This document shows positions 878 to 57,651 of a stretch of 64,000 nt of DNA, in pieces; the first letter of the stretch is position 1, and each line of letters begins with the position of its first letter. The notes under the pieces were generated by a model, which saw nothing but the letters and a program-made list of their open reading frames with translations, was not told the origin of the DNA and did not search any database. The stretch is taken from contig NZ_JAPUVI010000022.1 of NCBI RefSeq assembly GCF_029255285.1, positions 186,001-250,000 on the forward strand, read 5' to 3'. A program made the position numbers and the translations under genes. This DNA comes from Accumulibacter sp. Lineage in GTDB: Bacteria; Pseudomonadota; Gammaproteobacteria; Burkholderiales; Rhodocyclaceae.

Positions 878-1327
878 GCGACCTCCCGCGCCTACCGACC
901 CCAGAGCGACCAAACCGACCAGGGTCCGGACAGGCGTCGGCGTGCCGCCGGTAGACACAGGTGCCGCGGACGCTGATGCGCGATACCTGTGACGCTCGTC
1001 CGACCAGTGACCGCTTGGGCAAGCAACGGTGTCAATCGCCCAGGCACCGCGAAAGCACTGACGATTCTTTCACGCTCAGTACAGCTTTTCGCGTGTATCT
1101 TCCGGTCTGTATGGAGGAGCGTGGTCGAGCGGCAGGCACCGAAGCAATGAGCCGCCGTTCGCGGAAGACGGGCCCAGCGAAGCAAGCCGCGCTGGTGCGA
1201 GGGCATCGTCGAGTTGGATGCGCGACACGACCATCGACCCCAGCATCAACGCCACAGGCCGGCCAGTGATACGCTTGGCCGACCGAGTTTTTTCTACCTA
1301 GGGACTTGCGGGGAGGATCGAACGCGA
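878..1327. other. Intergenic stretch without a recognisable gene
   Basis: About 450 bases lie between the acetyltransferase and the acyltransferase-3 gene. Short overlapping frames on both strands show no family resemblance and no good ribosome-binding site. A GGGAGG at 1311-1316 is the likely Shine-Dalgarno of the next gene. I see no tRNA, terminator or repeat. Confidence 0.5.
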
Positions 1328-2386
1328 ATGATCGATCAGACTTCAAACTCAAGCAGGGCAGGCGCCGCATCCGGCAGCAACCGGCTCGTCGAAATCGACG
1401 CGCTGCGTGGGGTAGCGGCGCTGGCGGTAGTCCTGTTTCACTACACCACGCACTACGCGAGAGTCTTTGGGGCCGACCCGCCACCCTCGATTTCCGTGTC
1501 AGGGGGCCACTACGGCGTCAATCTGTTTTTCATCATCAGCGGCTTCGTGATTTTCATGACGCTAGACCGGACCGCGAAACCGATGGATTTTGTCGTCTCA
1601 CGATTCAGCCGCCTGTTTCCCGCCTATTGGGTAGCGATCGTCATGACCTTTTCGCTCACTCACCTGTTGGGCCTGCCGGGTAAGCTGGTCGACATCGGTG
1701 CCGCAGTCGGCAACCTGATCATGATTCACGGCCTGTTTCGCGTTCCCCATGTCGACGGGGTCTACTGGACACTGGAAGTGGAATTGTTGTTTTATTGTGG
1801 GATGCTCGCCCTCTTCCGGCTGCGCCGCCTCGACAGCATTCACTATGTCCTGCTCGGTCTATTGGCGGCACGACTGACCTACTTCGTGCTGGAAAAGGCC
1901 TTTGGCATCGATCTGTCATGGACGATCTACCGCCTCCTGATCCTCCGACATATCCCCTGGTTTGCGCTGGGCATATCGATATACCTTGCCACCCGACGAC
2001 GCGAGGGGGAATCCAGGCGTGCGCCAGCGTTGACCGCCGCCTGCGCAATCGTGACGCTGCTCATTGCCGAATCGGTCTTCGTCGGCATGCTGGCGGTGAT
2101 TCTCGCCGGCGCCGTCTTCCTTGCCGCAACCGCGCGTCTGTCGCCACTCCGGCATGCCGTTTTCGTCTGGTTGGGCGCCATCTCCTACCCACTGTACTTG
2201 CTCCACGAAAACATCGGCTGGAGCATTCAACTGCGCTTGCAGGCGCTCGGCGTGCCGATCGATCTCACCGTCGTGCTGGCCATGGCCACCAGCCTCACCC
2301 TGGCAACCGCTCTGACGCACTGGGTAGAGCAACCGGCCATGCGCTGGATTCGCGCTCGCTACCGCCGTCGACTGGCGCTGGCATGA
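1328..2386 (+). CDS. Acyltransferase 3 family integral membrane protein (OafA/NodX-like)
   Basis: This 352-residue protein probably O-acetylates (or otherwise acylates) a polysaccharide or lipid-linked sugar at the inner membrane. Near the N-terminus is the family hallmark, EIDALRGVAALAVVLFHY, containing the arginine and histidine of the acyltransferase-3 motif. Many hydrophobic segments follow, consistent with about ten membrane helices, and VYWTLEVELLFY is the second family landmark. The frame opens at 1214, but the ATG at 1328 is preferred: GGGAGG lies upstream and the 38 extra residues are hydrophilic and unlike the family. It ends about 165 bases before the TPR gene, on the same strand. 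The substrate is unknown; a role in exopolysaccharide decoration is inferred from context. Confidence 0.85.
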   Translation: MIDQTSNSSRAGAASGSNRLVEIDALRGVAALAVVLFHYTTHYARVFGADPPPSISVSGGHYGVNLFFIISGFVIFMTLDRTAKPMDFVVSRFSRLFPAYWVAIVMTFSLTHLLGLPGKLVDIGAAVGNLIMIHGLFRVPHVDGVYWTLEVELLFYCGMLALFRLRRLDSIHYVLLGLLAARLTYFVLEKAFGIDLSWTIYRLLILRHIPWFALGISIYLATRRREGESRRAPALTAACAIVTLLIAESVFVGMLAVILAGAVFLAATARLSPLRHAVFVWLGAISYPLYLLHENIGWSIQLRLQALGVPIDLTVVLAMATSLTLATALTHWVEQPAMRWIRARYRRRLALA

Positions 2387-2550
2387 TCCGAGTCGACCGC
2401 GCACCACGTCAAGACACACTGGCGGCGCGCTACGGCCGCTGTCTTGGCCGACAGGCGCAGCGCGGTCAAGCGGGTGAGAATAGGCAGGCCCCGCCGAAGC
2501 CGCGACGCTCGTCACAGTCCACCATCGACCCCCGCAAAGGAAACACAAGA

Positions 2551-3327
2551 ATGTTCACGCACTTCGAACGCCTGAAGTTTCTGTCAGCCACCACCACCCG
2601 GTGCTTCGTACTGGCTTTGGCGCTGATCGGTGCCGCCACGCGTGCTGGCGGGCAAGTCAAAGATGCGACAGCTGAAGAAATGGCCCTCCTCCCGTCCTAC
2701 TGCACCTATGTACAAGGCACCGGAAAGTACGAGACCCCTGAGGCCAAACGGTGGGCCGCACGCATGGGACCGGGCTTCTCCGCCATGCATCATTACTGCT
2801 GGGGACTGATGAACTGGCAACGTGCCATGCGCGGCAACATGCCGGCAAAAAATCGCGACTTCCTTCTCGGAACGGTGCGGCAGGACTACCTGTACGTCGT
2901 CAAGACGACCAGTAGCAACTTCATCATGCTGCCGGAAATCCATACCCGAATCGGCCAGGTGGAACTGCGCCTTTCGCTCTACCATGATGCCGAAAAGTCG
3001 TTTGCGCGCGCGCGCGCGCTCCGTCCGGACTACTGGCCGGCCTATTCCTACTGGGCGGACTTTCTGATCACCGCCGGCAAGAAAGCCGAAGCCAAGCAGC
3101 TGGTGAAAGCCGGCCTGGAGTACAGCCCCGGATCACGCATGTTGCGCGACCAGTATCGCTTGCTGGGTGGGAATTTTTCCGAGATCGTTCAGAAGACCGC
3201 ACCAGCAAGAGCCGGTGCGGAATCGGGGATAGCCGATCCGGCACTAGAGGCGACGGCTCCCGACGCCAACGAGAACTCGGCCGCAACCGAAGCTCCCGAC
3301 GAAGCGCTGATCGGCGATATCGACTAG
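2551..3327 (+). CDS. Secreted tetratricopeptide-repeat protein
   Basis: The frame is open from 1795, overlapping the acyltransferase gene, but the real start is the ATG at 2551 with AAAGGA just upstream, giving 258 residues. Residues 1-34 look like a Sec signal peptide: basic start, hydrophobic LALALIGAATRAG, then a short processing region. Residues about 120-205 form TPR-like helix pairs (RIGQVELRLSLYHDAEKSFARARAL, then YWPAYSYWADFLITAGKKAEA). The last 40 residues are acidic and low-complexity. TPRs mediate protein-protein contacts; a periplasmic scaffold for polysaccharide or matrix export is plausible from the neighbours but not shown. Before residue 120 there are conserved-looking Cys and Trp residues (YCTYV, YCWGLMNW) that I cannot assign. 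Confidence 0.7.
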   Translation: MFTHFERLKFLSATTTRCFVLALALIGAATRAGGQVKDATAEEMALLPSYCTYVQGTGKYETPEAKRWAARMGPGFSAMHHYCWGLMNWQRAMRGNMPAKNRDFLLGTVRQDYLYVVKTTSSNFIMLPEIHTRIGQVELRLSLYHDAEKSFARARALRPDYWPAYSYWADFLITAGKKAEAKQLVKAGLEYSPGSRMLRDQYRLLGGNFSEIVQKTAPARAGAESGIADPALEATAPDANENSAATEAPDEALIGDID

Positions 3328-3423
3328 ACTGGCCGCCGCGTGCTCGCGTCGTGTGGCCGACAGTGCGTAGCGGCGTGATAGCATCAATCGCAACTTTGGT
3401 GTTGCTTGGCTACGCGCCGCTGC

Positions 3424-6400
3424 TCAGCGAGCTTCACCCCAGGGAGTTGGCTTGCCGAAGAAGTAGCCCTGCCCATAATCCACACCAAGGTTGCAAAGAC
3501 GTTCGGCAATCGCTGCGTTACACACGTACTCGGCAACGGTCCGGATACCCATGGCGTGGCTCATCTGGTTGATGGCAGCGACCAGAGCATCGTCCCGCGT
3601 GTTCTCACACATGTCTTTGACGAAGCTGCCGTCGATCTTGAGGTAGTCGACCGGCAGCGTCTTGAGGTAATGGAAAGACGATAGCCCGCTGCCGAAGTCA
3701 TCGAGCGCCAATTGACAACCGTGCCGCTGAAGCGCCGCCATCAGTTCGAGAGCTGGCCCGAGATTCTGAATGGCCGCCGTTTCGGTAATTTCGAAGCAAG
3801 CCATATGGGCCGGGAAAGCATGCTCCGCGAACTGTCCTTCGATGAAATCGAGAAGGCTTTCGTCGCTCAGCGAGTTGCCCGACAGGTTGATCGCCAGCTT
3901 GGCACCGGCCACTCCGACGCCCTTGGCGTACTCCTTGAAAGCCGTCTGAATCACCCAGCGATCAATGGCTCCCATCAGGCTATAACGTTCCGCCGCCGGG
4001 ATGAAGGCCGCCGGCAATACCAGTTCGCCTTGGCGCTGCGCATTGCCTTGATGAGCGACCCGCAACAGGGCTTCGTAGCGAACGGTCTGAAAATCCGGAC
4101 CCGGCAAGGCGACGATCGGTTGATAGTGAAGCCGGAACAACCCCTGTTCGAGGGCGTCTCTCAGGCCCGCCGCACCAAGAATTTCGCTATGGCGCTGGGT
4201 ACTTTGGTTGTCGGTTCTCTGGTAGACGTGTACGCGGTTACGGCCCAGTTCCTTGGCCGTATAGCAGGCGACGTCCGCCTCGCTCAGCAACTGTACGGTG
4301 TCCTGCGTCTCGGCGGTTATCGGCACCAAGCCAATGCTGACGCCAATCTGGTAGCTCCGTCCCTGCCAGTAGAAGCGGTGCTCATGAACCGTGCGCACCA
4401 CCGACTGAGCAATCACGTAGGCCCGCTCAAGCGGACAGTTCTCCTGAAGGAGAGCGAACTCGTCGCCGCCGATCCGCGCCAAGGTATCCGTCTCGCGGAA
4501 CATGCCGGCCAGAATGGTGTTGATCTGCTGCAGTAGTTCATCGCCAGCGGCATGGCCAGCCGTATCGTTGACCACTTTGAACTGGTCGAGGTCAAGGTAA
4601 CACAGCACATGCCGCGCGCCGTCGTAGCGCGCGCTCTTGACGGCCCGCTGCAAGCGCCGCTCGAATTCCGGCCGATTGATCAGGCCGGTCAAGGCGTCGT
4701 GAGTTGCGTCGTAGGCCAACTGACGGGCAAGCCGACGGGTTTCGGTGACGTTGTGAAAGACCAGAATGGCCCCCATCAAGCGGTTGTCGCGCCCGCGTAT
4801 CGGTGCGACGGAATCGTCGATGTCGTATTCCCGACCATCGCGGGCGACCAGCACGGAATGGCTGGCCAAGCTGACGATTCTTCCTTCCTGCAGACAACGT
4901 CTGACCGGGTCGGCTGCCGGCTGACGAGATTGATCATTGACAATCCGGAACACTTCGTGCGAACAGCGACCCCTCGCTTCGGCCAGTGCCCAGCCGGTAA
5001 GCGCCTCCGCCACCGGATTGAGGTAATCGATACAGCCTGCCGCATCAGTCGTAATCACCGCATCGCCGATCGAATGCAGAGTCACCAGCGCGCGTTCCTT
5101 CGCTTCGAACAAGGCGTGCTCAACACGTTTACGTTCCGTAATCTCGATACTGACGCCGATCAGTTGTTCGACCGAGCCGTCATCGCTCCGGATCGGCGCC
5201 TTGATCGTATGGAACCAACGCATCTCGCCGCCGCGATCGACGAACCTGATCTCCCGCTCGACCCGACGCCGCCTGCCGTCAAGAATCGCTTGATCATCCT
5301 CGCGCAGCGTCTTCAGAAGGTCCGGGTCAGTCACAAAATCTGGCAAGGCGTGACCGACCATTTGCCCCGGCGTCCGGTCGAAACTGACTGCCAGGCTGCG
5401 ATTGGCAAGCTGAATCGTTCCTTGTCGGTCAAGGACGAATATGAAGTGTGGATTGGCGTCGATGACAGTTCTGAGAAACGCCCGCTGCTGCTCGATTTCC
5501 CGCTGCGCGAGCAGGAGTCGCTCGACCAGCCTGACGTTACGGAAACAGGCGGCGATGCTGCCGACGAAAACGTTCAGCAAACTGCGGTCGAGCGTCTCCA
5601 GAACCTGCCCGGAATCCAGGAAGATGGCTGCTTCCTGGTGCGGCGACGCGTTCAAGTAGAGGACGGCGTAGTCGCCGCCGAAGACGTGCTGGCGGCGTGT
5701 CATGCTGGTCAGGATGGCGGAAACGATACGCTGCTCCGGCAAGGCTTCCAGCGGCCGCGCGATGAAACCAGCGTGACGACCGGCGGCACCGACGACATAA
5801 CAGTGTTCACCGTCGCCACCCAGTGGGGAACCCTTCTGCGTGCACACGATGCCGTCCACCGGTAGTTTGAGCAGCGCCGCGAGTTGGGTGAGAACTCCCT
5901 CAGCCAGATTGGCGATGGCGTGCTCCTCCATCAAGTCGGCCGCCGCCCGAACGATCAGTTCGAGGCCACGCCGATGCTCGGCAATGGCGTGTAGCTGCTG
6001 ATACGAGCGCAACGCCGAACTGACCGTCGTGATCAGGCGAGTGTGGGTCAACTCACCCTTGGTACGATAATCGTTGATGTCGTATTCCTGGATAACGGTC
6101 AACTCGGGCGCATAACCCGGCTCGCCAGTGCGCAGAATCAGTCGGCACTCCGCTAGACCCAGTTCGTCGCGAATATAGCCGACCAAGTCGAGACCGGCCT
6201 GCGCGGTCTCCATGACGACATCGAGCAACGCCACGGCAACATCTGGATGGACGTCCAGTTGCCGCCGCGCCTCACCACCACTGTGAGCATGTAGTAGGTG
6301 CAGCGGGCGACCAAAGACACGCAGATCGCTAAGAACGAAACGCGTCACACTGTGCACCTCGGGGTCGTCGTCCACCACCAGCACCTTCCAAGGCAAAGGA

Positions 6401-45161: not shown

Positions 45162-46280
45162 GTGGAAAGGCAATGGTTCCTGGAGTCGATCGCGGCCAAT
45201 GGCTCGCATCTCACCTACCAGATCACGCAATTGCCGTTTCGTATCGGTCGCGATCCCGATAACGACCTCGTTCTCACTTCGCGCGGCCTGAGCCGACATC
45301 ACGCGCTGCTCACGCCCGACATCAGCGGCCGCATCCGGCTGACCGATCTGAACAGTACCAACGGCAGCTTCGTCGGCCGCCAGCGCGTCGAAGGATCCTG
45401 CCTGCTCGACGACAAGGACATCGTGCACTTCGGCACCGCCGAATTCCGCCTGCGCCTGCGCGTCGAGGAAACAAGCGGCGGCGACCAGTTACGCACCATG
45501 CTGGTGCCGAGCGGTTTGCGCTTGTCGGAAATGTTCGTCGCCCACGAGCGGGAGTTCCTCGACCTGCTCGACGGCTACGGCATGTCGGGTGCCGCGCAAC
45601 CGATCGTCGAAGCACAGAGCCGAAGAGTCGTGGCCTACGAATTGCTCGGTCGCGCCAACCACCCGCTCTTGCCGACCTCGCCGATGCGCCTCTTCTCGCT
45701 GGCCAGCGCGCTCGATCGCGAGGTCGAGTTGAGCGTCGCCTTCCGCCGCTTCGGCATCGCGATGATTGCACCGCGTCTGCAAGGCTTCGCGTTGTTTGCC
45801 AACACCCATCCCAAGGAAACGTTCAGCGAGGAATTCTTCGCCTCGCTGGTCAGCCTGCGCGAGCAAAACCCGGGGCTCGACCTGGTGATCGAAATCCATG
45901 AAACCGCCGTCACCGACAGCCGGCGCCTGATCGAGCTTGCCGCGCGCTTCCGCGATATCGGCATACGCTTCGCCTACGACGATTTCGGCGCCGGTCAGGC
46001 GCGGCTCAGCGAACTCGGCGAGGCTCCGGCCCATTTCGTGAAGTTCGACATGGGGCTGCTGCACGACATCCACCTGGCCAGCGAGCGCAAACGACACGTC
46101 GTCAGCGACCTCGTCAAACTCGTTCTTGACCTCGGTTCGGTGCCGCTGGCCGAGGGGATCGAGCTGGAAGCCGAAGCGGAGGTATGCCGGGAGATGGGCT
46201 TTCAGCTCATACAGGGCTTTCTCACCGGTAAACCGATTCCGGTCGACCAGTTGCAAGGCCCCCGTCAGATCGCCGGCTAG
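45162..46280 (+). CDS. FHA domain-EAL domain protein
   Basis: The 372 residues begin with a forkhead-associated phosphothreonine-binding domain (FRIGRDPDNDLVL, GLSRHHALL, LTDLNSTNGSFVG; about residues 25-100) and continue with an EAL-type domain (about 130-365): YELLGR in place of EALLR, EIHETAV, AYDDFGAGQARL, VKFDMGLLHDI and AEGIELEAEAEVCREMG. Most metal and base residues seem present, but the signature is ELL, so activity is uncertain. FHA domains in secretion systems read Thr kinase signals. The GTG start has GGAG before it. Its stop shares CTAG with the converging eCIS gene. Confidence 0.85.
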   Translation: MERQWFLESIAANGSHLTYQITQLPFRIGRDPDNDLVLTSRGLSRHHALLTPDISGRIRLTDLNSTNGSFVGRQRVEGSCLLDDKDIVHFGTAEFRLRLRVEETSGGDQLRTMLVPSGLRLSEMFVAHEREFLDLLDGYGMSGAAQPIVEAQSRRVVAYELLGRANHPLLPTSPMRLFSLASALDREVELSVAFRRFGIAMIAPRLQGFALFANTHPKETFSEEFFASLVSLREQNPGLDLVIEIHETAVTDSRRLIELAARFRDIGIRFAYDDFGAGQARLSELGEAPAHFVKFDMGLLHDIHLASERKRHVVSDLVKLVLDLGSVPLAEGIELEAEAEVCREMGFQLIQGFLTGKPIPVDQLQGPRQIAG

Positions 46281-49200
46281 GGTAGCAGCGTGATGTAGCG
46301 CTTGGCCACGAAGCCCGTGCTAGCCGGCTGCTCGATGGCATACCAGGTGCCGAATTCACCGATCACCCGTACCGACGTTCCGGTCGGCAGGCGGCCGCTG
46401 GCGCTGCTCGCCGTCGTCGGACGACTGCGTACCATCAGATCGTCGCGTACCGTCGCCACCACGCCGTTGCGGCGCAGGGGTGTCACCGCGAAATCGTTCT
46501 GGTCGGGGACGTCAGCGCGGCCAAGGTTGATATTGGCGTTGGGCGGGCGCGTCGGATCGCGGGATCCGGCGAGCGGCCGGCCGATGGCGGCAAGAATTTC
46601 GTCTTCCGATCCCAGTGGACCGAGCGCCGCGTCGATGCCGGCCGCCGCCGGGAAGGTCGGCCCGGCGCCGAGCAAGCCACGCAAGTAGACGACGTGGGCC
46701 GGCAGCGGCGACGGAGGCGGTGAGGCCAGCGGTGCATGGCGTGCCGCCAGCAAGGCAATCTTGAGCTGGGCGGCAACCGGTGGCAGCAGCAGGAGATCGG
46801 CCAGTTGCGGCATGACGAAGTTCATGTCGACGTGCGGCGCGGCCAGTGCGCAACTGCCGAAGCGCGCCAGTTCGGTCATGAACCGGCCACGACGCGCCGG
46901 GTTGTACTGCATCCATACCTGCTCGAGAGTGATCGCCACGCGCATGTTTCCGGTACTCGTCGGGTCGGCGGTCACGCGGCTGAACAGTTGATTGACCTGC
47001 GCAACGTTGCCGGCGATCACCGCCAGGGCGCTGTCGATCTGGGCGGCCGACGAGTGGTTCTCCATGTACAGGACGAACACCCGGTCGGCCAGTTCGCCGA
47101 GTTGGCGGATGGCCTCGCCACTGCCCCAGTAGTGATTGGCCGCCAGATCGTAGAGCGGCTGAATGACGGCTTCGCGCCAGGTATCGGTAGCCACCGCGCC
47201 CAGATGCGTCGATCGCCCGGCGCCGATGCGGCGCAACATCGCATCGCGGCAGGCATGCGTCCCGGCCACCTGGTCGCGTGCCCAGCACTCGAGTACGGCC
47301 CGCAGGCAACCGGTCGGTTCGGTCCCGAATTCGACGTACACCAGCTTGTCGGCCACCAGATCGGGGTCGCCGGGGACGCTCAGACCGATGTCGGTCGACC
47401 CGGGGCGAAGGAAAGTCGTTTGCGACGGCGCGAACGACGCATCGGCGCCGAGCACCGTGGCCCCCGGGCCGGCCATCTTCGCCACCACGTCACGCAGGCT
47501 GGGGTCGGCGGCCAACGCCGCGTTGACGTCGGCGGCGGCGTCGGCCGGCAAGGCGCGCAAGGCCGAGCCAACGGCATGCGAGTTGGTCAGGCAGGCATCA
47601 AGAACGATTCGGCGCTGCGTCGGATCGCCGCTCATCAGGCCGGTCAGGGCGCTCATCAGGGCCGTCGTGTTGGCACCCGCGGTGCCACTCGTGCCCAGGG
47701 CGTCGACGGTCATCGCCGCACCCGCGCTACCGGCCAGATTGAGCACCGTCGCGTTGCCGTGGCCGCCGATCAGCGCCTGGTAAATCCGGCCATTGATCCC
47801 GTAGCGTGCCGCCACCGGAGCCAGTTGCGACTGATAGCCACCCACCGTCGCGTGCCCTTCGATGACGATGGTCAGGATGTCGGTACTGCTCACCATGTCC
47901 TGCAGGCCGAGATTGCGATGGAAGGCCCCGTTGTCGTCGACCGCCGGGTAGAGCACGACCGTCAGGGGTCGCCGCAAGGGCGACCAGGGCGACTGGGCCA
48001 GTTGCGGGTAGGCTTCGTTGCCGACCAGACCGTCCAGCGTCCCCTTGGTGAAATGGTGGAAAGTTCGCGCATAGGTGATCCGGCCGTGATAGGTATGCGG
48101 CAGGGCGCCTTCGCGACGCAGGGCGAGGAAGGATTCGACTTCGCTGCCGTCATTGGCCGACAGGACCGGCGTGCAGGTCGTCAGATAGCTGATGAAGTTG
48201 CCCAGTTCGGGCATCGCCGGATCGACGAGCTTTTCGAACGGCCCCTTGCTCGCCGCCGGATTCGGCGGCGCACGCATGACCAGCGACAGGTTGGCCGCCG
48301 GCCAGGCGGCTTCCAAAGTCGTCAGGTCGCGCCCCCAGCTCTCGGCCTCGTTGATGTTGCTCGTCGAACGCAACCAAGCGGTGTGGTCGGTCGCCGCGCC
48401 TTCGGCGTATTTCTCGAGCGGCGCGTAGATCGCCGGAATGCCTTTGCCGATGATGTCGCCGACCCTGAGATCGCCAGCCCCGGCCACGACGTTCGGGCGC
48501 TCGGCAAAACGATCGAGCTCGCGGAACGCCGCCAGTGCCGCCGCGTCGGCCTGCAAGGCCGGGCTCGTCGCCCAGTCGAGCTGACTGTCGGTGAGCATCG
48601 AGAAGCCGGACAGCGTCATCGCCCGGATACTCGCCGGCGTCTCCGAGGTCTGCGCCGGCGTGCGCGTCACCGCCGGCCAGCGCAGGACGATCGGGTCGCC
48701 AGCGCTCTGCTGCTGAGCGACGTGCGCCAGTTCGTGAGCGATCAGATCCTGGCCTTCGGGCGTGTCCGGCCGGTACTTGCCCTGCGCAAAAGCGATGTGA
48801 TCCCCCACCGTGAAGGCGTCGGCCGCCAGCCGATCCGCCTCACGGGCGGCCGCCAGACCGCTGTGGATGCGCACACGCGACAGATCGGCCCGCATGCGCT
48901 GCTCAAAGTAGCCGCGCGTCGGTAGGTCAAGCTCGATGCCAGCGCCCAGACGGTCGACCACGCTCTCGTCAACCGCAGTCGGCAGGGCTGGCGCAGCCTC
49001 CGCGGCGCGGCGCGGCATCACCGACTGCTTGGGCGCCACGGACATCATCGGCGGCGCTTGTGACGAGGAACTCGCCGCGACCGGCATGGAACACATCAAG
49101 GCCTTTTCGTCGCTGACCACCTGATTGTTCTTGTCCAGCGTCTCGATCGACGGCGGCGCCGAGTCGCCCGTCACCACACCTTTCATGGCGTCGCCATCGA

Positions 49201-52200
49201 GCTTGGGCTGCTCGACCTTGATCGCGTCGGCAGGCTTCTCGGGCCGGATCTTGCCGCTCTTCGAGTTGTAGCCCAGACTGCCCGACGCCTTGATGCCAAT
49301 CGGCAACTTGTAGTTGGCTTCAGCCAGCGTCCAGTCCTTCTTCCACACCGTAACGGTGTCGACCAAAAGGTTGAGGCGGGCCGACACTTCGCCGAACAGA
49401 CGGAACTTCAGTTCCGGCGAAATGTCGAGATCCAGCGTGTTGGTGATGTCCAGCCCCTTGGCTCGACTGTAGGTGAATTCGGACTTCGCCGAAAGCACGG
49501 GTTTGTCGGCCGGGATGCCGGCCGTCGCTTCGGCGCCGACACTGCCGACCAGTTCGGCCACCGCCGCACCGAAGATCAGATTGATCTTGGCATCGGCGCC
49601 GAAGCCGGCATCGGCATAGACCGCGAAAGTCCCGCCGCCGCCGATTTCGAGCGTCTGGAAATCCGCCTTGGCCGGATCGAATTCCTTGATTTCGATGGTG
49701 ATTCCGGTCAGCTTTGCGGGCCCGACGCTGGCATGCGCCTTGGCCGAGATCGAGGCCGAGAAGGTGATGCCGACGCTCACCGAACCGACCGCAAAACCGA
49801 GCCCCGGCAGCGGCACCGGCGGCGTCGAAAAGGTCTTGTTGAAAAACTCGCCGCCGTCCTTGGGATACTTGCCGAAGACCTCGAAGTCCTTGGTCTTCAG
49901 ATTACCGCCGACGCGCACCGAGCCGTCCGGCAACAAGCGCAGCTTCAGCGTGCCGTCCAGCTTGTCCTTGATGAACTCGGCCTTGATGTCGGCCGCGCCG
50001 AACACTTTGAAGTCCTTGCCCGCGCCCTTGTCGCCGCGCACACCGGTTTTCTCGTCGACCGTGGCGTTGGTGACGCCCGCCGTGACCTTGCCGTCGAGCG
50101 GACCTTTCTTGACGCTGAATTCGCCTTCGACGAGCACCGAACCGTCATCATAGCTGAACTTCAGCTTGGCGCCGCTGAGCCCCGGCAACTTGGGCGTGAC
50201 ATCGCCACTGGCGGCGACTTTCCAGCCCTTGTCGCCCTGCGTGACGCTGACCGTGATGTCGGCCTTCTCGACTCCCGGCACCTTCTCGTCGATGCCGAGC
50301 TTGCCGGTGATCTGCAGCGTGTCCTTGCCGTAGCCGACGGTCAGCGATGCGCTCTTGAGGCCGGGAATGTCCGGCTCCACACTGCCGGTCGCGGTAAACA
50401 AGGACTCGGCGTAGGCCGCCTTGAGCGTCGCCGACTTGATCCCCTTGACCTTGTCCGGATTGGTGATACCCAGCGTGCCGCCGCCGAAGAAGCCCTTGCT
50501 GCTAGAGTAGCCGAGGTCGACGGTGGCCAGATCGAACAGCTTGCGGTCGGCGGTCAGCGTCCCCTTGGCGACGAGTTCGGGCCCCTTCGGCCCGGCCTTG
50601 ACGGTCACCGAGAGGATGCCGGCGCCCAGACCGGCGATCGTGAAGCTGATCGAGCCGTCGGCACCCAAGCCTTGCGTCGCGAAGAAGAGCGTCAGACTGA
50701 CATCGTCTATGGTCAGACCGGGAACCGGCAGCTTGCCTTTCAACTGCTCGATGGAGAAGGTATGTTCGAAGGCGAAATCGTCGCCGCGCCAGCGCACCGG
50801 AATCGGCACGCCGGAGATCAAGGGGTGAGTCGTGGTCAGGGTTCCGTCGACGCTGAGTTTGCCGCGCACGAAAGCGAGCTCGCCGAAGCTGACCGGGCTG
50901 GCGCCTTCGACTTCGACTTGCGGCGGCGACAGGCTCGACAGTGCGCCGGCGTATTTTTTGCCTGAAACGCTGTTCAGGGTGCTCTGGAACGTGGTTCCCT
51001 TGTTCGCCTTGACGCCCTTCGGCAAATCCCAGGAGCCCTTCAGCTCGCCGACACTGCCGGTATGGTCCTTGTCGAGGTCGGCCGTCAGCGTGATCGACTT
51101 GAGTTCGATCCCGGCCAGGCGACCGCTGTCGATCAAGGTGACCGTCTTCTTGTTGCGCGGAAAGGCGTCGATGAAGCCCTGGCCGGTGTAGGAGTAGAGC
51201 GCGAAACGCGTCTTGTCGTTGCCGTCGTCCTTCGCCGGGCGCTTCTCGTCCTGCAGCCAGATCAGGTGCTTGCCCTCGCTAATCTGCTGGCGGCTCCAGA
51301 ACTGCGCCGTCTTCTCGGGGTTCTTGCCCTCGCCGCCGCCTTCCACGGTCTTGAAGTCGACGTCGTTCTCGTCGAGATACTTCTTTACCAGCGCGTCGCC
51401 GGTATTCTTGTCCACGGCACCGAGGTACACCTTCACGTTGGCGTAGATCACGGCGCGCAACTGCGAACCGACGTTCGTGTTGTGCGCTCCGGTCAACAAC
51501 TCGTAGTTGTCGAAGGCATCGGCGCCGCCGAGTTGCACTTCAACGATGTGGTCGACCTGCAGGGGCGACTTCAGCCAGCTCCCGTCCGGCGTCCATGTCG
51601 GAACCTTGAGTTGCTCGATGAGCTCGCCCTCGGTGCCCGAGAGGCTCTTCTCCTGCGCTCCGTAGAAGGTCAGCGTCTGGCGACCGCCACCGACCTGGAA
51701 GCCGATCGCCGCGTAGTAGGCGGCGAGATCGAGTTTTTCTTTCCACTTCTTGACCTGCTCGGTCTGGAAAGGCGGCGTCTTGCGGTCGTAGCCCTTGGGG
51801 CGACGCAACGACTTACCGGCCAGCTTTTTGTAGAGATCGGCATGCCGCGCCTTGATCGCGGGCAGCTTCAGCGTTTCCAGCGCCGGCCGCGCCGCCTTGT
51901 CCTTCGCCGGATCGATGGCATCGCTGGCAATGTCGTTGGCGTCCTTGTACTTCGGATTGTCGGGCTTGCGGCGCACGACGTTGCTCACCGCCATGGAATC
52001 GTTCTGCAGCACGTGCGCCAGTTCGTGCGCCAGCAACGTCCGGCCCGACGACGTTGCCGGCTGGTACTCGCCGGCCGCGAAAGCGACGTGGTTGCCCCAG
52101 GTAAAGGCACGCGCGCGCAACAGACGGGCCGCTTCGCCGGCGCTGTCGTCGGCATGGATGCGCACCTCGCTCAGATCCCGGCCCAGACGCTGCTCGAAGA

Positions 52201-52918
52201 AGGCGCGCGTGTCGGCGTCGAGCGGCACGCCGGCACCAAGGCGCGACAACAGTTCGGCCGCCGTCGCGGGAACGTTGCCGGCGGCTGGCCGATCGCGCGC
52301 CGCGGCGCTGGCTGCCGCCTGGCGCTTGACCAAGCCTTCGTCCGGCACCGCCGACGCCGCCGTCGCCGTCGGCGGGGGATTGGGCACCTGACCCGCACGC
52401 TTGCCGTCGGTAGCGGCCGCCGCATTCGCTGTTGGCACCGGTTTGGCCACCGGCACAGGCGTCGCCGGCGCCGTTGGCGAAACCTTGCCACCTCCCCCGC
52501 CCGACGCCGCACGCGGCTCCTGACGCTTGATCTGTTCGCCCGGCGAACGACCGGGAGCTACGCCGGCGCCAGACGCAACGGCCGGCTCGGGCTGGCGCAT
52601 CACGCGCTGGGCGATAGCGTCGGCCTCGCGCTCGACCGCGTCGCCCGGCTCGCTGACCGCGAGTTTGGCGCGTACGGCCAAACGGTCGAAGCGTTGCTGG
52701 CTACTGCCGGACGGTGCCGCCGAAGCGCCCTGGCTTGTGGCTGGCGAGCCCGCCCGGATTTGCGACGCCTGCCGGCCGACGACCGCCCCCGGCTCGACCG
52801 GACGCGCTTCAGGCGGTCTGGCGTCCGGCGCTTTCTGCCCACGTTCCGCCTGGCCGGTTTTGGCCGGTGGCGTGGCCGGTTTCTTGAAGTCCGCGGCGGG
52901 TGGAGCGGCGGCAGGCAT
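46277..52918 (-). CDS. Giant eCIS-associated protein with two DUF4157 domains, HNH-like and caspase-like motifs
   Basis: This 2213-residue protein closes the contractile-injection operon. Order: Pro/Ala-rich disordered N-terminus; DUF4157 no. 1 (about 225-305; HELAH at 298-302), the eCIS-core domain found on injection-system cargo; an HNH-like nuclease motif (LQVDHIVEVQLGG, His457, then DNYELL and HNTNVGS); about 600 residues of Gly/Lys-rich beta repeats; a low-complexity link; DUF4157 no. 2 (about 1320-1400; HELAH at 1395-1399); a region with a caspase/CHAT-like pair, His1720 in IGGHGNATVLNL and Cys1776 in IVLDACLTNS; and an SH3-like end (VRSRPTTASSASGRLPTG). The activities are inferred from motifs. 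The gene looks like two cargo proteins joined end to end. Its start lies 15 bases after the previous stop. Confidence 0.8.
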   Translation of the reverse strand: MPAAAPPAADFKKPATPPAKTGQAERGQKAPDARPPEARPVEPGAVVGRQASQIRAGSPATSQGASAAPSGSSQQRFDRLAVRAKLAVSEPGDAVEREADAIAQRVMRQPEPAVASGAGVAPGRSPGEQIKRQEPRAASGGGGGKVSPTAPATPVPVAKPVPTANAAAATDGKRAGQVPNPPPTATAASAVPDEGLVKRQAAASAAARDRPAAGNVPATAAELLSRLGAGVPLDADTRAFFEQRLGRDLSEVRIHADDSAGEAARLLRARAFTWGNHVAFAAGEYQPATSSGRTLLAHELAHVLQNDSMAVSNVVRRKPDNPKYKDANDIASDAIDPAKDKAARPALETLKLPAIKARHADLYKKLAGKSLRRPKGYDRKTPPFQTEQVKKWKEKLDLAAYYAAIGFQVGGGRQTLTFYGAQEKSLSGTEGELIEQLKVPTWTPDGSWLKSPLQVDHIVEVQLGGADAFDNYELLTGAHNTNVGSQLRAVIYANVKVYLGAVDKNTGDALVKKYLDENDVDFKTVEGGGEGKNPEKTAQFWSRQQISEGKHLIWLQDEKRPAKDDGNDKTRFALYSYTGQGFIDAFPRNKKTVTLIDSGRLAGIELKSITLTADLDKDHTGSVGELKGSWDLPKGVKANKGTTFQSTLNSVSGKKYAGALSSLSPPQVEVEGASPVSFGELAFVRGKLSVDGTLTTTHPLISGVPIPVRWRGDDFAFEHTFSIEQLKGKLPVPGLTIDDVSLTLFFATQGLGADGSISFTIAGLGAGILSVTVKAGPKGPELVAKGTLTADRKLFDLATVDLGYSSSKGFFGGGTLGITNPDKVKGIKSATLKAAYAESLFTATGSVEPDIPGLKSASLTVGYGKDTLQITGKLGIDEKVPGVEKADITVSVTQGDKGWKVAASGDVTPKLPGLSGAKLKFSYDDGSVLVEGEFSVKKGPLDGKVTAGVTNATVDEKTGVRGDKGAGKDFKVFGAADIKAEFIKDKLDGTLKLRLLPDGSVRVGGNLKTKDFEVFGKYPKDGGEFFNKTFSTPPVPLPGLGFAVGSVSVGITFSASISAKAHASVGPAKLTGITIEIKEFDPAKADFQTLEIGGGGTFAVYADAGFGADAKINLIFGAAVAELVGSVGAEATAGIPADKPVLSAKSEFTYSRAKGLDITNTLDLDISPELKFRLFGEVSARLNLLVDTVTVWKKDWTLAEANYKLPIGIKASGSLGYNSKSGKIRPEKPADAIKVEQPKLDGDAMKGVVTGDSAPPSIETLDKNNQVVSDEKALMCSMPVAASSSSQAPPMMSVAPKQSVMPRRAAEAAPALPTAVDESVVDRLGAGIELDLPTRGYFEQRMRADLSRVRIHSGLAAAREADRLAADAFTVGDHIAFAQGKYRPDTPEGQDLIAHELAHVAQQQSAGDPIVLRWPAVTRTPAQTSETPASIRAMTLSGFSMLTDSQLDWATSPALQADAAALAAFRELDRFAERPNVVAGAGDLRVGDIIGKGIPAIYAPLEKYAEGAATDHTAWLRSTSNINEAESWGRDLTTLEAAWPAANLSLVMRAPPNPAASKGPFEKLVDPAMPELGNFISYLTTCTPVLSANDGSEVESFLALRREGALPHTYHGRITYARTFHHFTKGTLDGLVGNEAYPQLAQSPWSPLRRPLTVVLYPAVDDNGAFHRNLGLQDMVSSTDILTIVIEGHATVGGYQSQLAPVAARYGINGRIYQALIGGHGNATVLNLAGSAGAAMTVDALGTSGTAGANTTALMSALTGLMSGDPTQRRIVLDACLTNSHAVGSALRALPADAAADVNAALAADPSLRDVVAKMAGPGATVLGADASFAPSQTTFLRPGSTDIGLSVPGDPDLVADKLVYVEFGTEPTGCLRAVLECWARDQVAGTHACRDAMLRRIGAGRSTHLGAVATDTWREAVIQPLYDLAANHYWGSGEAIRQLGELADRVFVLYMENHSSAAQIDSALAVIAGNVAQVNQLFSRVTADPTSTGNMRVAITLEQVWMQYNPARRGRFMTELARFGSCALAAPHVDMNFVMPQLADLLLLPPVAAQLKIALLAARHAPLASPPPSPLPAHVVYLRGLLGAGPTFPAAAGIDAALGPLGSEDEILAAIGRPLAGSRDPTRPPNANINLGRADVPDQNDFAVTPLRRNGVVATVRDDLMVRSRPTTASSASGRLPTGTSVRVIGEFGTWYAIEQPASTGFVAKRYITLLP

Positions 52919-52933
52919 CGTTCCCGGCCCCCG

Positions 52934-55900
52934 TCAACCGGCGTTGAGTTCGAAGAAGATCACCTCGTCGTAATCGTTCGCGACGAGGCCGATCTCGGTG
53001 AGCTGCCCGCGGTCGTGCGCGTTGATTTCCTGGACCACCTGGCGCGCCGCGGCCGGCGCAGGCCTGCCGGCCGCCACCAGTGCCTCGACAACCGCCTTCA
53101 GCCGCTCCGGAGCGCCGGCATCCGGCGCGGCCTTGGTCGTCGCCAAGGTGACGCCGCGCACCGGCTGGTCGACGTTCAGCGAGGCGATGAAGTTGGCCAG
53201 CGCCGCCCCCTGCGGCGTGTTGTCGGCGAACTCCAGGGGACTGCGCGGCGCTTCCTTGTTCAGGTAATGATTCGGGGCATCCCAGTTGCCGTAGATGAGC
53301 AGCGCATTGCGCGTTTCGCCGGCCGCGGCGCTGACCACCAGCAAGCCACCGTCGAGAGCACCGTCGGCCAGCGGTGGCGGCGGTTGTGGAATCGCCGCCA
53401 GAGCACCCTCGCCCGCCGCCGGCGGCCGGGTCAGACTGGCGATCTGCTGCAACATGTTGCGCAGGCGGAAGTGATTCTGCCAACCCTGCCCGGTCGCCGG
53501 CGCGCTTTCCCATACGCGTCCGAGAACCACTTGCGGCGCCGGTGCCGCCAGGCGCCACATCGCCAGCACGCGTTCGGCCGATTCTTCGGCAAAGCTGCTC
53601 TCGTCACGGAAGCGCAGGATCCCCACGCGCTGGAACTTGAACCGTGCAAGGTTCTCGGGGTCGCCCTTGTCGAGCGCCGCCTTGAGAAGTTCGAAATCCT
53701 TGAGCGTTTCCAGCCGCAGATGCCAGACCTGGAAAGCCTCGACCGCCGGAACGACGAGCGGCGCGCAGACCGGTCCGCACAGGTGCGTGCGCGCCCGGCG
53801 GAACATCACCCAGTCCTGCACGGCGCGTACCTGCTGCGCCGCCGGCAGGTCGAGCGTCGGGAACAGCCGGCGCCGCGCACGGGCCAGGAAAGCGGCGTCG
53901 TCGCTCACTTCGGCGATCGCCAGCAGCGTATTCATCACCGCTACGCCGAGTGCATCCGTCGCAGCGGGCATGCCGGCCAGCGCGCTCATGACGAGCAAAG
54001 GCTGGCGAGCTGCCAGCGTGGCGTCTCCGGACAAGCCGACGCCGCTGCTCGCCAGCGCCCGCACGACGTTCTGCAGCACCGCCTTCTTGGCCTCCGTCGA
54101 GTTGCTCACCGAGAGCACGGCGCGGCGCGGCGATTCCTGCCAATCGATGAACACCGGCGAATTCGACGGGTCATGCCGCTGATCGTCGAGAATGAAGCTG
54201 CCGGCATCACCGTCGCCCCGGCGCAGCAGCGTCAGGCGCAAGGTGCTGCGCCTGGCGTCGGGTTTCCGCGTTTCCGTTCCACCGACCATCGTACTGCTGG
54301 CGATCATGTCCATCTGCACCAGCAGTTCGACGTAGTCCTCGACGAACTTGCGCGACAGAACCGTCAGCTCGCCGGTCAGCGTCGCGACGGTGCCCCGACG
54401 ACCGGCAATCACCCGCAGTTCCGCCTTGACGTCGAGCGCCCCGCCAAGCCCCAGGTCGAAGGGGTCGCCGCCCACGTCGCCGGCCAGGTAGACACTGTAG
54501 CGACCGATTTCGAGCGCCAGCTTCTGCTCGCGCTTGAACTCGAGACCGGAGACCTCCTGCGGCTCGGCGGAGGTAGTCAGCGTCAGGCCGTAGCTGCCGT
54601 CGTCGCGCGTCTCGCTGCGCGCCATTCCGGAAAGAGTCAACGCCAGCAGCGGGTTGTCCACCCGATCGTAGGCCTTCTCCGCCACCTCCGCCGGCGCACC
54701 ACCGTAAGCGTTCTCGTCGGGCGCCGCCGCGGCCGCCGGAGCAGCCGGAGCCGGAGCCGGGGCCGCGTCGACCGCCGCGGCGGCTTCCGTCTTGCTCTCA
54801 AGCGAACCGAAGTCGAATACGGTCAGCGCGGCCGCCCGCATGTCGACCTGCCACCAGGTGCCGGCCGCCTGCCTCTGCAGGTCCACCACCTGACCGTCCG
54901 GAACGAAGATCTCGACCTCTTCGAACTCGCCGGGATGATCGATGCCGCGCGTCAGCGACAGGCGCTGCAGATGCTGCGCTTCGCTCAGCAGGTGGGCAAT
55001 CTCGTCGGCCCGCACGGCATGGTAGTGCAGGCGGACGCCCTCGCCGAACATGCGCGCCAGTTGTTCCTCGAGCGCCGTCTTGCCGGGCGAGACCGGCAGG
55101 TAACCGGCCGGCGGAAGTTCGACGAAGCCGGCGTTGATCAGCATGCGTTGTGCCGGCAGGGCACCCTTGCCGAGTTCCGCCTCGGCGAGCTGGCTGCTCA
55201 GATCGTAGAGCTCAGCGTAGGCCAGCTTCACTTCATTGGCCGCCTCCAGAGCGCCTTTCTTGCTCGGCTTGTCGCCGAAGGACTGGACGATCTTCTCGGC
55301 GCTGTCGCGATACCTTTTGTGCAGCGCCTCGAGTTCCTGGCGCGTCCTGTCGAGCAACAGGCGCAGTTCCGCGCAATCTTCGGCCGGCGTGACGACCGCG
55401 CTGCCGGCATCGAAAAGGCTGCTGAGCTGGCACTGAAACTGGAGGATCTGCGCCACGAAGACGTTCCACGGGCGCATCGCCAGGCGCCCCTGCCAATAGC
55501 CGCGCGCCTGTGTATCCATGCGCTCGCGCCGCCCGCTCCAGGCATCGAGAACGCGATTGACGCCGGCTTCACGCACCAGCAGTCCGATCACCACTTCATC
55601 GCGCCCATACAGGCCGGCCGGCTCGCACCAGATCCCGCTGGCCAGCCCCGCCGCGCTGAGCGCGTTCGCCGCCAGCCACGGCTCGGCGGCAAAGTAGGCC
55701 GATGCCACACGGTTGCGCAGATGCACATGCGAGGTCGCAACCGCGCTGCTCGCCGGCAACAGCAGCTTGATGGGACGCAGACGCAGAACGACGCCTTCGC
55801 GCCACCAGGGATGCCGCGCGTCGCTGGCGCAGGCGCTCTCGCACAATTTGCCGAAAACCGGCTCATTGCCACACTGCCCTTCGACCGGGCCGACGGTAAT

Positions 55901-56329
55901 CTCGTAGATCGCCAGCGCGGAGCTCTCCTTGACGCCACCCTTGTCGGTGGCCAGACAATCGGCGAGTTCGGCGTTGCCACTCGCCGGCGCTGGCGTCGCA
56001 CCGGCCAACAGATCGGCGATCGCCGTCTGCATTTCGGCGGTCGCGAGAACGAAATTGCCCGCCGCCGTAACCGCCAGCCCGGCGCCGACCCGCAGATCCG
56101 CCCCGCTGACGGCAATCCCCATCCCGTGTACGACACCCCAGCCGCCAGCCAGATTGGCCAGCCGGGTGCGCGTGCGGTGGTAATCCTGTTCGAGCGCAAA
56201 AGCATCGGCGCGCAGGAACTGCCCATCGAAGTAATGCAGGCGGGTCAGTGGGCTCGCCTGCTCGATGAAGGCGACGCCGTCTTTGACGCTAATCTCGACG
56301 GTCTCGCCGGTGATTTCGTTTTTGCCCAT
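52934..56329 (-). CDS. Large eCIS structural protein with tail-module N-terminus
   Basis: The 1131 residues begin with a module (RLHYFDGQFLRADAFALEQDYH, GGWGVVHGMGIAVSG, LRVGAGLAVTAAGNFVLA) that also starts the neighbouring protein encoded upstream. Residues 330-400 form a coiled coil, followed by an Ala/Pro linker near residue 530 and a long C-terminal part I cannot assign. Conserved-looking cysteine groups (CGNEPVFGKLCESAC, HLCGPVCAP) lie on both sides. Proteins with this start occur in phage-tail-like injection loci. A baseplate or spike-associated role is inferred from place and size. It starts two bases after the preceding gene's stop. Confidence 0.6.
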   Translation of the reverse strand: MGKNEITGETVEISVKDGVAFIEQASPLTRLHYFDGQFLRADAFALEQDYHRTRTRLANLAGGWGVVHGMGIAVSGADLRVGAGLAVTAAGNFVLATAEMQTAIADLLAGATPAPASGNAELADCLATDKGGVKESSALAIYEITVGPVEGQCGNEPVFGKLCESACASDARHPWWREGVVLRLRPIKLLLPASSAVATSHVHLRNRVASAYFAAEPWLAANALSAAGLASGIWCEPAGLYGRDEVVIGLLVREAGVNRVLDAWSGRRERMDTQARGYWQGRLAMRPWNVFVAQILQFQCQLSSLFDAGSAVVTPAEDCAELRLLLDRTRQELEALHKRYRDSAEKIVQSFGDKPSKKGALEAANEVKLAYAELYDLSSQLAEAELGKGALPAQRMLINAGFVELPPAGYLPVSPGKTALEEQLARMFGEGVRLHYHAVRADEIAHLLSEAQHLQRLSLTRGIDHPGEFEEVEIFVPDGQVVDLQRQAAGTWWQVDMRAAALTVFDFGSLESKTEAAAAVDAAPAPAPAAPAAAAAPDENAYGGAPAEVAEKAYDRVDNPLLALTLSGMARSETRDDGSYGLTLTTSAEPQEVSGLEFKREQKLALEIGRYSVYLAGDVGGDPFDLGLGGALDVKAELRVIAGRRGTVATLTGELTVLSRKFVEDYVELLVQMDMIASSTMVGGTETRKPDARRSTLRLTLLRRGDGDAGSFILDDQRHDPSNSPVFIDWQESPRRAVLSVSNSTEAKKAVLQNVVRALASSGVGLSGDATLAARQPLLVMSALAGMPAATDALGVAVMNTLLAIAEVSDDAAFLARARRRLFPTLDLPAAQQVRAVQDWVMFRRARTHLCGPVCAPLVVPAVEAFQVWHLRLETLKDFELLKAALDKGDPENLARFKFQRVGILRFRDESSFAEESAERVLAMWRLAAPAPQVVLGRVWESAPATGQGWQNHFRLRNMLQQIASLTRPPAAGEGALAAIPQPPPPLADGALDGGLLVVSAAAGETRNALLIYGNWDAPNHYLNKEAPRSPLEFADNTPQGAALANFIASLNVDQPVRGVTLATTKAAPDAGAPERLKAVVEALVAAGRPAPAAARQVVQEINAHDRGQLTEIGLVANDYDEVIFFELNAG

Positions 56330-56331
56330 GA

Positions 56332-57651
56332 CTAGCCCCTGAAGATGGTGGTGGTTAGGGTGCGGCCGTCGCTATCCGGAAGCAGCGCACCGGCGGGAAT
56401 CAGATTGGCGCCGAGCAGTGGCGTGCTGCCCGTGCCGACGACGCTGACGCGCAGCCGCGAGCCGACCGGTGCGCGATCGAGCGTCAGCGTGACGCTTGGC
56501 TGCGCCGGATCGCTCTCGTCGTAGGTCGGCGCGGCGAGGACGAAAGTCTTCCAGCCTTCGTCGTCGAGGTACTCGCTGACGCCGAAGGCCACCGCCTGGA
56601 CGCTGGCGACCGCCAGTCGCTGACTGAAAACGAGCGTCAGGTCGCTGCCGGCCAGCGTCGCGCCGCCGCCGACGACGACCGCGCCGGCCGCCGCCGCGGG
56701 CGGCGGCTCGGTCAGCAGCAAGGCCTGCAGCAGGTAGCCGGGCAGCAGGCTGTCGCGCCCGCCGAGTTCGACGCTGCCGATCGTCGCCTGCCAGCCGCTG
56801 GCGTCCTGCCAGACATGCACGTCGCGCAAGCGGGCGATCGGCAGGCGGAGTTCATCGTCGTCGGCCGCGTCCATCAGCTCGTCGGCCACCAAGGGCGACA
56901 TTTCGGCCACCGCGCGCGCGCTGACTTCGCGCAGCAGTGCGGCGCGAGCCGCTGCCTGGTCGGCGGCCGGCAAGGTCGGCAAGACGGCCAGGCGGTCGGT
57001 CAGCCACTGCTCGGCCGGCAGCGGCTGGCCGGCGCTGTCGGTCGCCATGGGAAGCCGCCCGAAGTAGCGTTGCAACAGGTGATAGGGCGTCGGCGAAGCC
57101 GCCGCCGGCGCCTCGACGTGCCGCACCAGCGCCAGTTGCGGGCGCTCGCAGAGACGCGCGTAGGCGATGTCGGCGGCACTGCCGGCGCAGGGCTCGGCGA
57201 TCGCCGGCACCGGTTGGGCGAGGCAAGTGCCGTAGCCGACGATCACGTCGAGGTCGAAGCGGGCATCCTTGACCGCTTCGATATCGTCGAATTCCTCATC
57301 GCCGGCGTGCTTTTCCCACCACTTGGGCAGGCTGACGCATTGCTCGACGTCGAGCAGGAGATCGCGGCCGAGTGCGTCGATGGCATAGCCGGGACCGACG
57401 TGCAGTTCGAAATCGTCGGTATCGAAGCGCACCGGATAGCCGGCGACGACGCCGCTGCCGTGCAGCAGGCGCTGATGGCGGCGCAGACGGCCGACGTGGA
57501 AGCCCTGCTCGGCGCGCAGATCGGCAACACCGAGCAACATGCCGAAGTGGTAATTCGGCGCGCACTGCGGGTTGTCGGGCAGGCTCGCCGCACAGCGGTC
57601 GATCACCGGTACGCCGCTGCAGGCAAGTCCGGGGGTGTCGTTCGCTTTCAT
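56332..57651 (-). CDS. eCIS structural protein, paralogous N-terminal module plus Ig-like end
   Basis: The 439 residues start with YHFGMLLGVADLRAEQGFHV, HGSGVVAGYPVRF and LHVGPGYAIDALGRDLLLD, the same module as in the next gene, then a middle helical part with Cys residues, and a C-terminal beta domain (LTLVFSQRLAVASVQAVAF to LRVSVVGTGSTPLLGANLIP) resembling bacterial Ig-like folds. It overlaps or abuts both neighbours on the minus strand, so it belongs to the injection operon. A structural or adaptor role is likely; no enzyme motif is seen. Confidence 0.6.
   Translation of the reverse strand: MKANDTPGLACSGVPVIDRCAASLPDNPQCAPNYHFGMLLGVADLRAEQGFHVGRLRRHQRLLHGSGVVAGYPVRFDTDDFELHVGPGYAIDALGRDLLLDVEQCVSLPKWWEKHAGDEEFDDIEAVKDARFDLDVIVGYGTCLAQPVPAIAEPCAGSAADIAYARLCERPQLALVRHVEAPAAASPTPYHLLQRYFGRLPMATDSAGQPLPAEQWLTDRLAVLPTLPAADQAAARAALLREVSARAVAEMSPLVADELMDAADDDELRLPIARLRDVHVWQDASGWQATIGSVELGGRDSLLPGYLLQALLLTEPPPAAAAGAVVVGGGATLAGSDLTLVFSQRLAVASVQAVAFGVSEYLDDEGWKTFVLAAPTYDESDPAQPSVTLTLDRAPVGSRLRVSVVGTGSTPLLGANLIPAGALLPDSDGRTLTTTIFRG

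Follow-up and report, generated by a model that had tools for sequence, protein, structure and literature searches.

The final gene of an extracellular contractile injection system (eCIS) operon was analyzed in Accumulibacter sp., a genus whose habitat is wastewater, within a stretch of 64,000 nucleotides (contig NZ_JAPUVI010000022.1 of RefSeq assembly GCF_029255285.1, positions 186,001 to 250,000), referred to here as the window. The gene probably encodes a dual-payload eCIS cargo, in which one leader is followed by two exchangeable cassettes read in a single frame. According to the proposed arrangement, two cassettes joined in frame would follow the N-terminal leader: cassette A, made up of a DUF4157 domain, a candidate nuclease of HNN type and a long beta-rich stretch, and cassette B, made up of a second DUF4157 domain, a putative caspase-like region, about 300 further residues and a terminal SH3 domain. 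Loading of the chain would probably take place once, via its single leader, and both effectors would be delivered jointly in a fixed 1:1 ratio. We infer the effector activities, the delivery and any processing of the chain from sequence.

The gene forms a single open frame on the minus strand, with 2213 codons from ATG and no internal stop. The Pfam eCIS_core (DUF4157) profile matched the protein at two sites (whole-protein E 1.9e-56), which scored 104.8 and 101.8 bits, both far above the cut-off of 22. In a profile search of the 4.19 Mb assembly (113 contigs), these two domains were the sole matches at E ≤ 0.001. HELAH begins at residue 298 in the first and at residue 1395 in the second, a distance of 1097 residues, in agreement with an earlier note made from the letters of the window alone, which had described two such domains about 1100 residues apart. 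The same note had placed the motifs GGHG (His1720) and LDAC (Cys1776) after the second domain, and they were located at residues 1718-1721 and 1773-1776, respectively. Its description of a tandem layout, in which one frame encodes two distinct candidate effectors, each behind its own DUF4157, was likewise borne out.

The genes upstream also agree with the cargo role that had been proposed. On the same strand, the genes that precede the cargo gene encode an AAA ATPase, CIS13-like proteins, a Tail_P2_I/CIS12-like protein, baseplate J, VgrG-like spike and hub proteins, two tube-type proteins and two sheath proteins. With its DUF4157 domains over the cut-off and an eCIS operon adjacent, the 2213-residue protein is by sequence a DUF4157 eCIS cargo, which would be packed into and delivered by the particle. 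At locus L003 (12615-17551), the eCIS operon holds two sheath-type and two tube-type genes.

Table 1. Features of the cargo gene and of the eCIS operon upstream of it (positions in the window; residues of the 2213-residue protein).
Feature	Position	Strand	Basis or remark
Tandem eCIS cargo gene, 2213 residues, final gene of eCIS operon	46277..52918	-	open frame, Pfam, homologues
Leader motif KLAVSEPGDAVEREAD..., residues 85-108, before first DUF4157	52595..52666	-	one N-terminal occurrence in each of the 5 tandem proteins; proposed loading region
eCIS_core/DUF4157 copy 1, residues 232-308, HELAH 298	51995..52225	-	104.8 bits, E 9.3e-30
HNN/HNH-type nuclease candidate, about residues 345-560 (approximate bounds), motif 454-484	51239..51886	-	residue conservation; Pfam HNH in relative P0004
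Beta-rich stretch of cassette A, about residues 561-1245 (approximate bounds)	49184..51238	-	structure prediction, beta moment
Block differing from two Accumulibacter relatives, coding nucleotides 359-4154	48765..52560	-	DNA comparison
eCIS_core/DUF4157 copy 2, residues 1330-1406, HELAH 1395; holds exchange boundary	48701..48931	-	101.8 bits, E 8.1e-29
Cassette B, residues 1411-2213	46280..48688	-	homologue comparison
Caspase-like (clan CD-like) candidate region, residues 1640-1860	47339..48001	-	His1720 codon 47759-47761, Cys1776 codon 47591-47593
Bacterial SH3 domain, residues 2161-2209	46292..46438	-	SH3_3 E 6.7e-8
eCIS operon gene upstream of cargo gene, weakly CIS13-like, 1131 residues	52934..56329	-	E 4.6e-4, 19.5 bits, far below curated 370
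CIS13-like eCIS protein, 439 residues	56332..57651	-	E 9.9e-11, 41.5 bits, below curated 370
AAA ATPase of eCIS operon, 717 residues	59054..61207	-	Pfam AAA E 8.6e-25

Three related loci were found, two in Accumulibacter (L006 and L008) and one in Pseudoduganella namucuonensis (L007). The tandem frames of L006 and L008 comprise 2253 and 2221 residues and have the same overall layout as the window protein; both carry cassette B at 82-91% identity to that of the window, but another cassette A. The frame of L007 (protein P0004, 2356 residues) consists of the series DUF4157, nuclease motif and beta stretch twice over, with no caspase-like part, and its two halves share 28% identity over 1128 columns (E 1e-114).

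Such an arrangement could also arise if a misassembly or a frameshift had joined two adjacent genes, and several sister genomes do have separate single-DUF4157 genes side by side. However, long stop-free tandem frames with diverged linkers were found in four assemblies from two genera, and because three of these assemblies are other than the window's and yield frames of 2253, 2221 and 2356 residues, an artefact of assembly is very unlikely. Among 61 genomes scanned, DUF4157 was present in 33, and at least two copies per frame, as judged by match place and frame length, were seen in four of these (G000, G004, G012 and G014). The frame in G014 encodes a different protein (P0011; L046:7768-11214, G014:C65) of 1148 residues with two DUF4157 domains and GTG as first codon; no clear family match was obtained for the region after either domain.

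Exchange of cassette A became evident when the DNA of the cargo genes was compared. Between the window and L006, matches covered the first 358 bases of the gene and the part from base 4155 to its end (86.7%), with none between. With the flanks included, identity was about 81% upstream, nothing was detectable in the block, and values of 86.7% and 82% were obtained for cassette B and the downstream region, respectively. Measured per 300 bases, identity was 75-88% in the five upstream windows and 73% in the opening window of the gene; it fell to 54-60% within the block, then reached 80-90% across cassette B and 77-83% downstream. The pattern was reversed between L006 and L008, where the block reached 89-97%, yet the upstream windows only 77-84% and cassette B 75-82%. 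Downstream of the cargo gene, L008 was not collinear with the window (44-52% identity).

The right boundary of the exchange relative to L006 falls at residue 1385, within the second DUF4157 and ten residues ahead of HELAH. At this cassette joint, L006 carries an additional, partial third DUF4157 (E 2.2e-5), and HELAH-type motifs occur at three places in its protein. The DNA comparison thus shows cassette A to have been replaced as a block between relatives, with the right boundary inside the second DUF4157, and this replacement would have happened at least twice. The arrangement is the one by which polymorphic toxins are recognized, an effector part swapped between kept flanks (54-60% in the block, 75-90% in the flanks). 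When 15 DUF4157 copies were placed in a tree, copy 2 of the window protein paired with copy 2 of the Pseudoduganella protein (96/93), and the second copies of L006 and L008 paired with each other (100/99); as six of the 12 inner branches were open and one row formed a long branch, the tree was used for these two pairs alone.

Both halves were also sought as separate genes, as the earlier note had suggested. For cassette A the outcome was positive. It was found in five of 28 genomes of the genus, including G020, where it forms a 1196-residue protein with one DUF4157, and G027, where the match was weak and partial. At class level, it was found in four of 369 genomes including its own; the proteins of G188 (1172 residues) and G261 (1222 residues) again have a single DUF4157, and the match in G363 is divided over two contigs. 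The single-DUF4157 genes of G020 and G188 lie directly behind an AAA ATPase gene. On this evidence, cassette A clearly exists as cargo of the ordinary kind with a single DUF4157.

For cassette B the result was partial. The class-level matches (four of 369 genomes) comprised its own genome, G366, and G116 and G253, the last two with the SH3 part alone. The frame in G366 (P0005) contains one DUF4157 with the leader motif ahead of it, and from this one damaged gene cassette B probably exists outside the tandem fusion. Accordingly, the fusion would be a composite of cassettes that also occur on their own, clearly so for A and probably for B. Cassette B matched nothing beyond its own genome in a phylum sample of 398 genomes, a plasmid search returned a weak SH3 match alone, and two sequence patterns per cassette gave no match for either cassette in viral contigs. 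When P0005 was compared with plasmids, at least 30 of 78 records, among the matches listed, matched within residues 17-326 (DUF4157 and little beyond).

Two or three separate single-DUF4157 genes lie close together on G010:C9, G015:C1, G007:C139 and G025:C59. Neighboring genes of this kind in sister genomes are a plausible starting point for a fusion.

The leader motif occurred once per chain, at the N-terminus, in all five tandem proteins, and the scan with the same pattern, which did not take in P0010, also detected it in P0005, P0007, P0008 and P0009. A single leader per tandem chain suggests that the whole chain would be loaded once, although the role of the motif in loading is itself a guess. 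No Shine-Dalgarno-like site preceded the examined internal starts in three of four linkers, and the P0004 linker had one weak site. The linkers between the cassettes were not conserved among the tandem proteins.

In the literature, which is cited here and below for excerpts of the papers, DUF4157 is described as the main marker of injection-particle cargo, with an unsettled role (PMC8213781, PMC11297309). Each copy might act as a releasing peptidase, so that the chain would be cut twice and two free effectors would result. Both copies keep HELAH and the following Gln (HExxHxxQ), and autoproteolysis was proposed for DUF4157 by Zhang et al. 2012 (PMC3482391). Nevertheless, killing by Cgo1 in E. 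coli was unimpaired in AlgoCIS point mutants of the putative metalloprotease motifs (PMC8894135), and the linkers, which are unconserved, show no evident cleavage site. Such double cutting, which would be compatible with the dual-payload reading, is considered unlikely. A broader view, put forward tentatively and itself rather unlikely, is that DUF4157 domains would be the standard joints of a multi-cassette, leader-tagged chain, serving as swap sites and possibly as releasing enzymes, and that one loading would deliver several toxins.

In the nuclease candidate of cassette A, residues D456, H457, E460, N471 and N480 were invariant in all eight aligned cassettes (seven proteins, 22-55% identity to the window's cassette; the matches in G363, on two contigs, and G027, weak and partial, were omitted). 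The residue preceding N480 was His in two, Ser in three, Ala in two and Arg in one, and because of this variation the motif is termed HNN rather than strict HNH. HNN and DUF1524-like variants exist among HNH nucleases. The Pfam HNH profile scored 13.3 bits with the window protein, below the cut-off of 21.4, and 26.4 bits with P0004, above it; at E ≤ 1, it was found in two of five cassettes. Similarly, an HNH family of PHROGs matched P0004 with E 1.9e-5 and the window protein weakly.

The HNH-like motif noticed earlier after the first DUF4157 was recovered at residues 454-484, with DH at 456-457, but the Pfam cut-off for HNH was exceeded only in the Pseudoduganella protein. The structure model of this region had a predicted local distance difference test score (pLDDT) mostly below 50. 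The domain is regarded as a candidate HNN-type nuclease with a predicted enzyme activity. It has the DH, N, N pattern in common with HNH nucleases (Pfam PF01844), and differs from them in its third His, discussed below, and in its location, with DUF4157 ahead of it and the long beta-rich stretch behind it.

The beta-rich stretch between the nuclease candidate and the second DUF4157 was predicted to consist of antiparallel strands, with block-mean pLDDT of 50-84 for residues 673-1012, and it had the highest beta moment among five regions compared. Matches to barrel proteins were weak, and a search of PDB sequences with cassette A gave best E values of 0.67 and 0.056. Residues 829-1245 (window 49184-50434) matched hypothetical proteins of Cereibacter plasmids at 25% identity (E 2e-6). 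A membrane-related role for this stretch would be a guess.

Cassette B was compared with the piece from G366, with which it shares 27% identity and is collinear over most of the first 560 residues (profile match at positions 4-559). Clan CD peptidases have a conserved His-Gly and a conserved Cys, each after a hydrophobic stretch. The His-Gly and Cys motifs were kept in all four aligned proteins (that of the window, two at 91 and 82% identity, and one at 27%), GGHG and LDAC each follow a hydrophobic stretch, and the spacing of His and Cys is 56 or 62. Among the four His and one Cys of the aligned region, His1720, His1781 and Cys1776 were kept, whereas His1667 and His1689 were not. The proposed dyad thus passed the conservation check against a distant homologue, and the chance that this region is caspase-like is judged somewhat better than even.

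Downstream of this region, the C-terminal bacterial SH3 domain was supported by PDB SH3 domains as well (best E 1.1e-6). Neither this domain nor the beta-rich stretch of cassette A had been mentioned in the earlier note. In P0005, residues 427-511, ahead of the His/Cys region, gave a marginal PDB match to 6f91, an alpha-1,2-mannosidase (E 3.4e-4).

Several results weigh against two exchangeable effector cassettes on one chain. Three of the 28 genomes of the genus contain cassette B, in every case within a tandem frame, and the gene for its counterpart in G366 is truncated at 5' by the contig end and split at 3' into two frames, of which the second holds SH3. With the pattern applied, the leader motif was absent from many single-DUF4157 proteins, and only two of the eight A cassettes retain the third His of HNH nucleases. 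For the caspase-like region, no clan CD family was matched in Pfam, NCBIfam or PDB sequences, the structure model failed (pLDDT 30), and the models of the cassettes were of poor quality overall. A comparison with the CHAT family gave no support for membership: hhalign gave 0.3% and 0.2% and aligned the Cys block alone, with a profile of 12 CHAT stretches from genus genomes, an effective alignment size of 1.5 and no power control. Of the caspase-like pattern that the earlier note had recognized, the motif residues stood, and the caspase-like fold was supported only in part. CHAT domains were observed in all 16 genus genomes searched (15 over the cut-off), with up to seven per genome.

It is accordingly quite possible, although not what we expect, that cassette B is no peptidase and that GGHG and LDAC are chance features of another fold. 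Apart from the missing family matches, to which PADLOC (four proteins searched) and the lack of any peptidase match among PDB sequences can be added, 59 of 213 columns in the aligned part of residues 1640-1860 were invariant across the four rows, so that the retention of two given residues is not rare, and His1781 was retained too. On the other hand, the selective loss of His1667 and His1689 and the position of both motifs after hydrophobic stretches, in the manner of clan CD, argue against chance.

Cysteine-protease domains in large multi-effector toxins cut the chain and release the effectors. In MARTX-type toxins, a single polypeptide combines several effectors with an internal clan CD cysteine-protease domain; the window protein is likewise a multi-effector polypeptide but has a candidate peptidase alone, its delivery would proceed by an injection particle, and processing of the chain by a peptidase is unsupported. 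The earlier note had proposed such self-processing, in which the caspase-like domain of cassette B would cut the chain and free the nuclease cassette. His1720 and Cys1776, 56 residues apart and kept in the distant homologue, are consistent with it, as is the occurrence of cassette B in the genus solely in tandem frames (three of three). Zhang et al. 2012 (PMC3482391) list caspase-like domains in two roles, releasing peptidase and C-terminal toxin, with PVC among the export routes.

The proposal was not supported, however: since tandem chains exist without cassette B (P0004 and P0011 have no caspase-like part), chain cutting by this cassette becomes less likely. In addition, the region occurs once outside a tandem (P0005, with the gene broken and its 5' end beyond the contig), Pfam recognizes the SH3 domain alone after it, and the linkers between the cassettes are unconserved. 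Self-processing is therefore considered very doubtful.

Compared with described systems, the arrangement appears to be new. In single-DUF4157 eCIS toxins (PMC8213781, PMC11297309), the domain likewise lies N-terminal to a variable effector at the 3' end of an eCIS operon, sometimes with linkers of more than 1000 residues (Geller 2021, PMC8213781; Danov 2024, PMC11297309), whereas the window protein has two DUF4157-effector units on one chain with one leader. AlgoCIS also has two DUF4157 cargoes with different C-termini in one particle, Cgo1 and Cgo2, which were shown experimentally to fill the tube lumen (PMC8894135); they are encoded by two separate genes, in contrast to the single fused gene described here. 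Tme of Streptomyces davawensis (PMC11126660) is similar in length (about 2250 residues), in its N-terminal DUF4157 and in having a nuclease, but it has one DUF4157, a tape-measure-like middle and a C-terminal nuclease, while in the window protein there are two DUF4157 domains and the nuclease candidate lies behind the first.

The PVC-metallopeptidase polymorphic toxins of Zhang et al. 2012 (PMC3482391) contain the same domain, and HNH and caspase-like domains are listed for this export route. Some of them have a second copy, located at the extreme C-terminus in the position of the toxin; in the window protein, the second copy is followed by a second effector and an internal cassette is exchanged. 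Single-effector DUF4157 cargo, two separate cargoes per particle, a long nuclease cargo and a C-terminal second DUF4157 are thus already known. A chain with two DUF4157-effector units, or exchange of an internal unit, was not found in the excerpts of main texts, supplementary tables lying outside this scope, and these two features are apparently new.

With two copies of the domain, a single leader and exchangeable effectors on the same chain, the role of DUF4157 becomes testable with respect to loading, action on each effector and cutting. The layout also suggests that a single loaded molecule may supply a particle with more than one effector.

Some further observations concern the surroundings of the genes. 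The convergent neighbor of the cargo gene (45162-46280) has FHA and EAL (cyclic di-GMP phosphodiesterase) signatures, and DNA matching it occupies the equivalent place in L006. Antisense to the cargo gene and the adjacent gene, an open frame of 1757 codons extends over 51062-56335 on the plus strand; the coding DNA here being GC-rich, it is probably a shadow frame. On G366:C2 (L040:12688-18592), two DUF4157 proteins are adjacent, the broken P0005/P0006 and P0007; the latter has a HELGH motif near its C-terminus, and the genes further along looked flagellar by eye. Near P0010 in G261 (L042:13556-18112, G261:C65), a DUF6519 protein is encoded, a family listed as an eCIS marker (PMC12923769).

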